Positions 14,786 to 16,695 of a stretch of DNA of 64,000 nt are shown here, piece by piece (the first letter of the stretch is position 1; each line of letters begins with the position of its first letter). The position numbers and the translations under genes were made by a program. The stretch is from Proteiniphilum propionicum (GTDB taxonomy: Bacteria > Bacteroidota > Bacteroidia > Bacteroidales > Dysgonomonadaceae), in NCBI RefSeq assembly GCF_022267555.1, contig NZ_CP073586.1, forward strand, positions 2,471,501 to 2,535,500, given 5' to 3'. A model generated the notes under the pieces. The model saw only the letters and a program-made list of their open reading frames with translations. It was not told the origin of the DNA and did no database searches.

Positions 14786-15241
14786 ATGCTGCAACGGATA
14801 CAAACGGTTTTTTTACTTCTGGCTTCTGCCGCCATGCTTGTCGCTACTGTTACACCTCTTGCCATTTTTATGTATAATGGTGACAGCGTTGTATTTGAAG
14901 CGATGGGAATCTACGTTAACGGCGAAATCAACGACTCTACCTGGGGCCTGTTCGCTATTGGTACTATCAGCGCGGTGCTGGCACTGATAACTGTCTTCCT
15001 CTACAGGCACAGAATTTTGCAAATACGCATATCCATCTTCAATATTGTAATGATGGTAGGTTTTTACCTCTATTCCGGTTTTATCATCTTTAAACTGTAT
15101 CCCTTCGAGAGCTTACAGTTTCAAAAAATAGGAGTGGGTATCATCATGCCTGTCATAGCAATTATCTTCACTATCCTTGCCATTCGCAAGATAGGTGCTG
15201 ATGAAACCCTAATCCGCTCACTTAACAGACTAAGAAAATAG
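14786..15241 (+). CDS. DUF4293-family integral membrane protein
   Basis: A 151-residue protein starting MLQRIQTVFLLLASAAMLVA with four hydrophobic segments (about 5-25, 50-72, 82-102 and 110-135). This fits DUF4293, a four-helix inner-membrane family restricted to Bacteroidota and often linked to rpoZ. Function is unknown. The ATG at 14786 is one base after the rpoZ stop; a longer open frame overlapping rpoZ is rejected because its extra residues have no family resemblance. A perfect-stem terminator follows 28 bases after the stop. Confidence 0.82.
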   Translation: MLQRIQTVFLLLASAAMLVATVTPLAIFMYNGDSVVFEAMGIYVNGEINDSTWGLFAIGTISAVLALITVFLYRHRILQIRISIFNIVMMVGFYLYSGFIIFKLYPFESLQFQKIGVGIIMPVIAIIFTILAIRKIGADETLIRSLNRLRK

Positions 15242-15268
15242 TGTTCACTGACAATACGCTATTTTTTC

Positions 15269-15307
15269 AAGGTAACTTATAATACGGGATTATAAGTTAC
15301 CTTTTTT
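15269..15307 (+). terminator. Rho-independent terminator of the bamD-rpoZ-DUF4293 operon
   Basis: AAGGTAACTTATAAT (15269-15283) pairs perfectly over 15 bases with ATTATAAGTTACCTT (15289-15303) across the loop ACGGG, followed by a run of T to 15307. Confidence 0.9.
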
Positions 15308-15353
15308 CAATTCTACCTTTTCCAAATTTTCATTTGAAAACTGTCGGAAAATT

Positions 15354-15456
15354 AAACCTCTTTTGAGGAAAAATGTTTAATAGGTGGCAGCGGTAAGCTA
15401 TGAAGAGATCGAAACAGCAAACATCTTTTGATGAAAACTGTTTAATTAAGTAGCAG
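15354..15456. repeat. Repeated 37-38 bp hairpin motif upstream of the M48 gene
   Basis: Two related segments lie at 15354-15390 and 15419-15456, offset by 65 bases. Both start AAAC, then a small hairpin (CCTC-TTTT-GAGG in the first, CATC-TTTT-GATG in the second), then a shared GAAAA-x-TGTTTAAT and end AGxxGCAG. The single change in the left arm is matched by a complementary change in the right arm, so pairing is kept. The motif lies upstream of the -7 box for the M48 gene, so it would act in DNA or in another transcript. Confidence 0.65.
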
Positions 15457-15486
15457 TCATCTGATTAATTATTTCAGTTTTTTTTA

Positions 15487-15494
15487 TACTTTTG
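15487..15494 (+). promoter_or_regulatory. Bacteroidetes -7 element of the M48 peptidase gene
   Basis: TACTTTTG fits TAnnTTTG and is 61 bases upstream of the ATG. A T-run precedes it, but no clear TTTG -33 box is seen. Confidence 0.5.
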
Positions 15495-15555
15495 TTCACT
15501 GATTGAGGTTTAAAAATGTATTCAACAGGGAAAAATCATATTATAAGCAACAACT

Positions 15556-16470
15556 ATGGAAAAAGTTAATTCATACAGAGTAGCAAAATTCTCATTTGCT
15601 CTGTTTTTAATGATGCTATTACTCGCATCGTGCAGCAGCGTTCCATTTACTGGTAGAAGACAATTGCAACTGGTATCAAATCAGGAAGTTATTGCTTTAA
15701 GCTTGCAGCAGTATCAGGATTTTATGCGTACTGCTCCCGTGGAGAGGGGCAGCGACGAAGCCAAGATGGTAACGCGCATTGGCAGTCGTATAGCCAGCGC
15801 AGTAGAGACATTCTATACCAATAAAGGTTATAAATCTGAACTTGAGAATTTTTCTTGGGAATTTAACCTTGTCAAGGATAATAGCGTAAATGCTTTTGCT
15901 ATGCCCGGTGGTAAAGTGGTTATTTTTACCGGCCTGCTGCCTGTAACTCAGACAGAAGATGCACTGGCAGTGGTTATAGGGCACGAGATAGCACATGTGC
16001 TTGCCCGTCATTCCAACGAGAGGCTCAGTCAACAAGTGGCTCTGCATTACGGAGGCAGTATTGCCGGTGGACTTCTTGGTAACTCGCAGGCCACCAAACA
16101 ACTAGGCAACACAGTATTCGGGCTTGGTGCTCAGTTTGGCGTTATGATGCCCTACGCCCGCAAGCAGGAGTATGAAGCTGATGAGATAGGGCTAATTATC
16201 ATGGCTATGGCAGGCTATAACCCACAGATCGCAGTACCTTTCTGGACAAGAATGGCACAAAGTTCAGGGGGTGCAAATGTTCCCGAGTTCCTTAGCACTC
16301 ACCCAACAGACAGTAAGCGCATTGCAAACATTGAGATGATTATGCCAAATGTGATGCAATACTACAAAGGCTCCGGAGTGCAAAATACCACTACCGCACC
16401 TGTCAAAACCAAAACCACCGTGCCTGTAGAACCCCGTAAAGAAGCAACATCAAAGGATTGGACCTTCTGA
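15556..16470 (+). CDS. M48-family zinc metallopeptidase, lipoprotein
   Basis: A 304-residue predicted lipoprotein: the leader ends LLLASC (Cys26), and CSSVPFTGRRQLQLVS follows, as in the YcaL/LoiP/BepA-like group. The zinc motif HEIAHVLARH (HExxH) lies around residues 142-151, and EYEADEIG near 207-214 supplies the third ligand. Members degrade or help refold misassembled outer-membrane proteins in the periplasm. There is no TPR domain, so it is closer to LoiP than to BepA. The tail from about 275 is threonine/lysine-rich and probably disordered. Confidence 0.9.
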   Translation: MEKVNSYRVAKFSFALFLMMLLLASCSSVPFTGRRQLQLVSNQEVIALSLQQYQDFMRTAPVERGSDEAKMVTRIGSRIASAVETFYTNKGYKSELENFSWEFNLVKDNSVNAFAMPGGKVVIFTGLLPVTQTEDALAVVIGHEIAHVLARHSNERLSQQVALHYGGSIAGGLLGNSQATKQLGNTVFGLGAQFGVMMPYARKQEYEADEIGLIIMAMAGYNPQIAVPFWTRMAQSSGGANVPEFLSTHPTDSKRIANIEMIMPNVMQYYKGSGVQNTTTAPVKTKTTVPVEPRKEATSKDWTF

Positions 16471-16504
16471 AAAAGACAGAAATATCTTCATAATAAATAT
16501 CCTG

Positions 16505-16562
16505 AAACAGGAGTTGGCTGATGATACGAAATTAATGCCACATCAACAATTCCTGTTTTTTT
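16505..16562 (+). terminator. Probable terminator after the M48 gene
   Basis: AAACAGGA (16505-16512) pairs with TCCTGTTT (16551-16558), with an inner GTTG/CAAC pairing, followed by a T-run. The loop is long, so confidence is moderate. Confidence 0.55.
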
Positions 16563-16566
16563 CTAT

Positions 16567-16597
16567 TTTGAAATTATCCCTAAATTCTATATCTTTG
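16567..16597 (+). promoter_or_regulatory. Bacteroidetes promoter of the topoisomerase gene
   Basis: TTTG at 16567-16570 and TATCTTTG at 16590-16597 are separated by exactly 19 bases, an exact match to the primary-sigma consensus. The leader to the ATG at 16696 is about 90 bases. Confidence 0.8.
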
Positions 16598-16695
16598 AGC
16601 AATTTTTCAAACAAAAACAAGGCCATAATAAGAACGGTTTTTCGATTGCCGGCAACCAAGCCTGCCACTTGAAATTTCGTTTATTAAATTGATAT

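Follow-up and report, generated by a model that had tools for sequence, protein, structure and literature searches.

The repeated motifs found upstream of an M48 metalloprotease gene in Proteiniphilum propionicum are two copies of a promoter-like DNA element, of which many relatives carry one before the same gene. The element is conserved, keeps one direction relative to the M48 gene, has no further significant copy in its own genome and holds no conserved hairpin. At about even odds (a probability of roughly 0.5), its sequence features point to an alternative promoter of the ECF-sigma type for the protease, duplicated here, with a sigma-A box 41 bp downstream. The window, i.e., the whole 64,000-nucleotide stretch that was analyzed, belongs to a 3.9-Mb genome in a single contig, and the element copies, terminator, sigma-A box and M48 gene described next lie on its forward strand.

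The 38-mers at 15344-15381 and 15409-15446, spaced 65 bp apart, are identical at 31 of 38 bases (82%); across 1000 dinucleotide shuffles of 15230-15560, no 38-base match exceeded 27 (mean 22.3) and 0/1000 reached 31, so the repetition described in the earlier note is well founded. The C-to-A and G-to-T pair of changes that it saw between the motifs is likewise present in the sequence, and the AGxxGCAG flank it took to be shared does exist, albeit with a one-base indel. Copy 1 of the element (15353-15380) has TAAAC at 15353-15357, followed by CTT, TGTT at 15374-15377 and a terminal TTTAA, with the proposed -35/-10 pair among these. Copy 2 (15418-15445), 65 bp 3' of it, has CAAAC at 15418-15422 and TGTT at 15439-15442, with one mismatch to the element pattern. 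With a sequence-only model (R1) the two score 39.7 bits (E 1.6e-9) and 30.8 bits (E 9.4e-7) in their own genome, both being in the training set of that model and in the alignment (A1) discussed below. An A-tract at 15337-15340, 5' of copy 1 in a position like that of an UP element, is kept at copy 1 and partly lost at copy 2. The supposed third, weaker form of the motif (TTTGAAAACTGT, 15333-15344) is better read as flank, its AAAA at 15337-15340 being the A-tract position of copy 1. A terminator after the DUF4293 gene (15269-15308, a 15-bp stem at 15269-15303 plus a T-run) separates the element from the upstream genes, and the M48 gene follows at 15556-16470 (Pfam PF01435, E 4.5e-37), which confirms the location between a strong terminator and an M48 gene. 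The housekeeping sigma-A-type -7 box (TAnnTTTG) TATACTTTTG stands at 15485-15494, 41 bp after copy 2. The M48 protein, which by eye has a lipoprotein-like start, is weakly BepA/LoiP-like, scoring far below the cut-offs of both families (111 bits against 570 for NF052400 BepA; 56 bits against 365 for NF052399 LoiP), and its nearest relatives are in the genus Proteiniphilum of the family Dysgonomonadaceae.

Searches with this protein gave a match in 35 of 41 genomes and, in a named genome collection, 217 loci of which the best 80 were kept; the resulting upstream set comprises 55 distinct regions from the window species, its genus, Petrimonas, Seramator and near kin, together with 42 outgroups (97 in all). 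The conserved pattern is linear and directional—an A-tract, about 13 bp, TAAACtaCTT, 11 bp and TGTT. Its core, AAACnnCTT-N11-TGTT, occurs forward in 32 of the 97 M48 upstream regions, namely in 32/55 from Proteiniphilum, Petrimonas, Seramator and near kin and 0/42 from outgroups, and reversed in none of the 97; the looser AAAC-N16-TGTT occurs 33 times forward and three times in reverse. A fuller consensus reaches best-match scores of 23-26 of 26 in 20/55 regions and never more than 20 in 1100 shuffled regions. Only the window has two copies among the upstream regions compared, the other carriers having one each. The alignment A1 consists of 28 distinct elements chosen by similarity, with identical rows merged; L018 and L020, with scores of 19 and 18 and degraded boxes, were omitted, L066 (score 17) was included, and L070 and L072 are absent. 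Across rows chosen in this way, columns 22-25, 28-30, 39 and 42-45 are invariant (AAAC-N2-CTT-N8-A-N2-TGTT), with TAAAC exact in 27/28, TAAAC-N16-TGTT in 27/28 and AAAC-N16-TGTT in 28/28. In the A-tract, out of 30 distinct elements, 27 have A at column -16, 27 at -15 and 25 at -14. The outer arms AAAC/GTTT form a dyad, three pairs of which are complementary in 28/28; the asymmetric columns 26, 27 and 28 complement columns 42, 41 and 40 in just 1, 2 and 0 of the 28 rows. On the M48 tree (55 rows), the history of the element takes six changes, at least four of them forced by well-supported branches (tree shuffles average 17.9, with 0/500 as low as 6). We read this as an old element that has been lost several times; by eye, its place has often been taken by a sigma-A box. 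The earlier proposal of a repeated cis-regulatory element, possibly a protein-binding site, survives in the form of a putative regulatory element that is duplicated, conserved and M48-linked.

All ten other element-bearing loci of the genus from the 41-genome search (L010-L015, L017, L019, L025, L028) show, by eye, a divergent parC start upstream of M48 with the element in between; in the window, M48 is turned round and lies after DUF4293, both pointing the same way, and here too the element, located past the terminator, is 5' of M48. It is found 5' of M48 in both gene orientations. The inversion of M48 relative to DUF4293 and parC, as compared with the other element-bearing Proteiniphilum loci, is seen at 15242-16695 of the window, and the same orientation recurs in L021-L024, whose M48 genes are without the element. 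Two further peculiarities of these loci are roughly 1.3 kb of additional DNA, holding by eye a transporter-like frame, between DUF4293 and the M48 3' end in L017 and L019, and an array in which the 8-bp unit TGATTTAA is repeated exactly in tandem, 28.8 times, 5' of M48 in L021 (1223-1452; genome G014). This array sits between a sigma-A-type box and the M48 start, is represented by a few units only in the close relatives L023 and L024, and could tune or vary expression.

In its own genome, no copies besides the two were found at three or fewer mismatches, and model R1 gave nothing beyond them better than E 0.015; with no further significant model match, a dispersed repeat or genome-wide array is rejected. 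Two-mismatch searches returned 16 sites in this genome against 29 for the reversed control, giving no sign of a regulon, and 19 against 42 in a Petrimonas genome, again no excess; the single exact match in the latter is at M48. Across 41 genomes, the model with strict filters yielded, among the matches listed, 12 below 1e-6 in 11 genomes, all 5' of M48, and a best other match at E 0.002; the elements of those 11 genomes helped build the model, such that only the absence of other sites is informative. The strict pattern has 11 sites in the 41 genomes (control, three), eight at M48 and three elsewhere (in G002, G025 and G036). The G036 site (L243, G036:C266:8365-8391), in another family, gives a near-perfect match to the element (TAAACATCTT-N11-TGTTAT) and stands about 90 bp 5' of a non-M48 ORF; it also matches the model at E 0.0025 and could be either a chance occurrence or a promoter of this kind serving a different gene. 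The A-tract combined with TAAAC-N16-TGTT is found at eight sites, copy 1 among them, versus two in the control, a weak excess in mixed contexts. A search of the open-access literature found no title on this element.

ECF-type promoters have AAC in the -35 box and a spacing of about 16 bp to the -10 box, and A1 displays a matching arrangement, with an AAC-containing candidate -35 box and a short candidate -10 box an almost constant distance apart (N16 after AAAC). We propose that each copy may act as an alternative ECF-type promoter driving the M48 gene, in which TAAAC(TACTT) would be the -35 and TGTT the -10 box, 16 bp apart, and the A-tract would bind the alpha subunit of RNA polymerase. A/T-rich UP elements at -35 to -60 aid ECF promoters (PMC3817407); the A-tract, 13 bp before TAAAC, is in the UP position if TGTT is the -10 box. 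The asymmetric columns, moreover, hold a constant orientation toward M48, which a promoter requires. A further point in favor is PM2, a second promoter class of Bacteroides thetaiotaomicron with boxes at -10 and -30 and TGTT near -10, which is proposed to be ECF-read. TAnnTTTG is neither inside nor downstream of the element in 11/34 rows (L010, L011, L013, L049, L058, L062, L064, L066-L069), and in L014 the element is only 32 bp from the gene, so promoter function may have to come from the element. An envelope-stress signal would then increase the amount of a quality-control protease of the periplasm or outer membrane, with the downstream sigma-A box of the window probably providing basal expression; we infer the promoter nature, the ECF class of the sigma factor, the stress signal and the location and role of the protease. 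Certain observations pull against this proposal. ECF factors are mostly autoregulated (PMC3817407), yet TAAAC-N16-TGTT is in 0/26 upstream regions of ECF genes in the own genome (26 of 27 matches over the cut-off, one with a 530-aa frame being excluded), and a looser ECF pattern is in 6/26 against 4.0 by shuffling, with 55/300 shuffles as high. Conservation of the spacer columns (TACTT, AAAA) goes beyond what a plain sigma promoter would require, the outer-arm dyad would also suit a dimeric regulator, and the sigma-A box TACTTTTG lies inside 11/28 elements.

The dyad raises the main, though less probable, alternative, in which a transcription factor dedicated to this gene, such as a dimer of the TetR type, would use the element as its operator, with TTAAAC-N17-GTTTAA as the site. 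Such a factor would repress M48 in the relatives where the site overlaps a sigma-A -7 box (TACTTTTG is inside the dyad in those 11/28 elements), and act from 38-41 bp 5' of the sigma-A box in the window and one subclade. In keeping with this, the inner TTT/AAA accompanies the invariably paired outer arms in 20-28 of 28, and TAnnTTTG follows the element by 38-41 bp, a spacing suiting an activator site, in 12/34 rows (window copy 2, L017, L019, L025, L028, L048, L051, L054, L056, L057, L059, L065). The genome has only three exact outer-arm sites, copy 1 among them, and a motif private to one gene is what a dedicated regulator would have. Nonetheless, Petrimonas-like rows alter the right arm (GTTAT) and keep the left, conservation is asymmetric with a fixed orientation, the outer dyad at one or fewer mismatches is no commoner than in the control (30 vs 39 sites), and the 11/34 rows devoid of TAnnTTTG leave no such box to regulate.

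At a distant locus of this genome, a TetR-family gene with a tolC-like gene after it favors an operator in that the site 5' of the TetR gene agrees in outer arms and spacing (12/12) and is well kept in orthologs. By eye this site is a 29-bp palindrome, TTAAACAwwTGATTwAATCAwwTGTTTAA (L240; G000:C1:2948741-2948769), of which 10-12/12 outer-arm bases are kept near the start in 12 of the 15 loci read, its own included; through it an efflux regulator likely controls its own gene. Within the 64-kb window, a model of these sites scores highest at copy 1, but the M48 elements score only -19.6 to 10.5 against 33.0-43.2 for the TetR sites and are missing their inner TGATT/AATCA, and we reject the tolC-linked TetR as the binder; another dimeric regulator is possible. 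Orthologs of this TetR (at least 66% identity), sought in 16 genomes of the genus, are present in 6/6 with the motif (G000, G003, G006, G009, G011, G015) and 3/10 without it (G001, G002, G008; G013 of the ten being without an M48 match), a co-occurrence that follows ancestry as much as function. No relative of it was found among viral contigs. Short interspersed repeats of the type CAGCAGACTGTCCCTAAAA occur 5' of the TetR palindrome in L253.

A more prosaic but improbable alternative is that the element is just the housekeeping sigma-A promoter of M48 in a form inherited in common, of which the window retains degenerate remnants. The consensus of sigma-A(Bfr) promoters is TAnnTTTG / TTTG (PMC7366714). 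Consistent with such an origin, TACTTTTG is at one fixed place inside the elements that have it, L018 and L053 keep TACATTTG though TAAAC and TGTT are lost, and element-less clades show, by eye, boxes such as TTAATTACTTTTG or TATACTTTTG. Against it, TAnnTTTG at this fixed place is restricted to 11/28 aligned rows and is in neither window copy; the Petrimonas-like rows, L010, L011, L013, L043 and the window lose the TTTG or TA of the -7 box and keep AAAC and TGTT; and the invariant columns differ from the sigma-A consensus.

The starting point of the earlier note was a pair of hairpins, CCTC-TTTT-GAGG (CCTCTTTTGAGG, 15357-15368, inside copy 1) and CATC-TTTT-GATG (CATCTTTTGATG, 15422-15433, inside copy 2), whose pairing appeared to be selected. 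Neither is conserved as a stem. All four stem pairs are formed in only 9/28 aligned elements and none or one in 12/28, and the covariance check among relatives, over these 28 distinct elements, finds 57.1% of stem cells paired; on these orthologous elements the conserved hairpin is rejected. Rows whose left arm is CCTC/CCAC as in copy 1 (L010, L011, L013, L043; M48 80-82% identical) form 0 or 1 pairs, and L012 and L055 (81-82%) form three. Pairing in A1 does exceed that of shuffles (reached by 1/500; the covariation score by 10/500) and of stem versions slid by 1-3 columns (21-38% of cells), although kinship alone, or taking the stem from one row, can produce such an excess. The nine fully paired rows are the two window copies and seven CTAC/GTGG rows that fall in one clade of the M48 tree. 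The double change between the copies is one event, read after the fact, and since the full stem is missing from most rows and the fully paired ones come from the window and a single clade, it is best seen as drift between the two copies. Perfect hairpins with 4-bp stems and 4-nt loops number six in this AT-rich stretch against a shuffle mean of 2.6. Taken with an unremarkable RNA fold of 15305-15480 (z -0.95; 35/200 shuffles as good), no Rfam family match at the motifs (at gathering scores the sole match in the window is a tRNA) and a distance from element to M48 match of 32 to 181 bp among rows with intact boxes (measured to the protein-match start and in some cases overstated), these results largely refute a structured RNA element or small transcript with selected hairpins, which we regard as highly improbable despite the two copies and their one double change.

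The element is ordinary but tidy cis-regulation. A bolder and rather unlikely reading is a private promoter. The Dysgonomonadaceae would have an alternative sigma factor or a dedicated regulator whose sole target is the M48 envelope protease, and it would act through a 40-bp element kept in three genera, staying with the inverted gene and duplicated here to raise or sharpen the response. To our knowledge, the regulation of envelope quality-control proteases in Bacteroidota is little charted, and a single-gene promoter-like element with clear boxes, common to three genera, offers a direct experimental handle. It also illustrates that a difference between two repeats which looks compensatory can lose that appearance when orthologs are aligned.

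Among known systems, the tolC-linked TetR site shares the outer arms TTAAAC-N17-GTTTAA with the element, whereas the inner TGATT/AATCA is confined to the TetR site. The sigma-A(Bfr) promoter resembles it through the TACTTTTG of 11/28 elements, the -7 box being missing from the other 17, and differs in that the invariant bases of the element include AAAC and TGTT. PM2, the second promoter class of B. thetaiotaomicron, has boxes centered at -10 and -30 and precedes 75 coding genes in the study that describes it, in contrast to the one gene before which the M48 element was found (PMC7366714). This class has TGTT near -10 and is proposed to be ECF-read (PMC12596196). The likeness to PM2 comprises box positions, TGTT and the distinctness from TAnnTTTG. 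SM6 of Flavobacterium psychrophilum (PMC9723704) has CGT rather than TGTT in the -10 region and another gene set, being linked to secretion genes, and nevertheless offers a parallel in the form of an ECF-type -10 box in a Bacteroidota genome.
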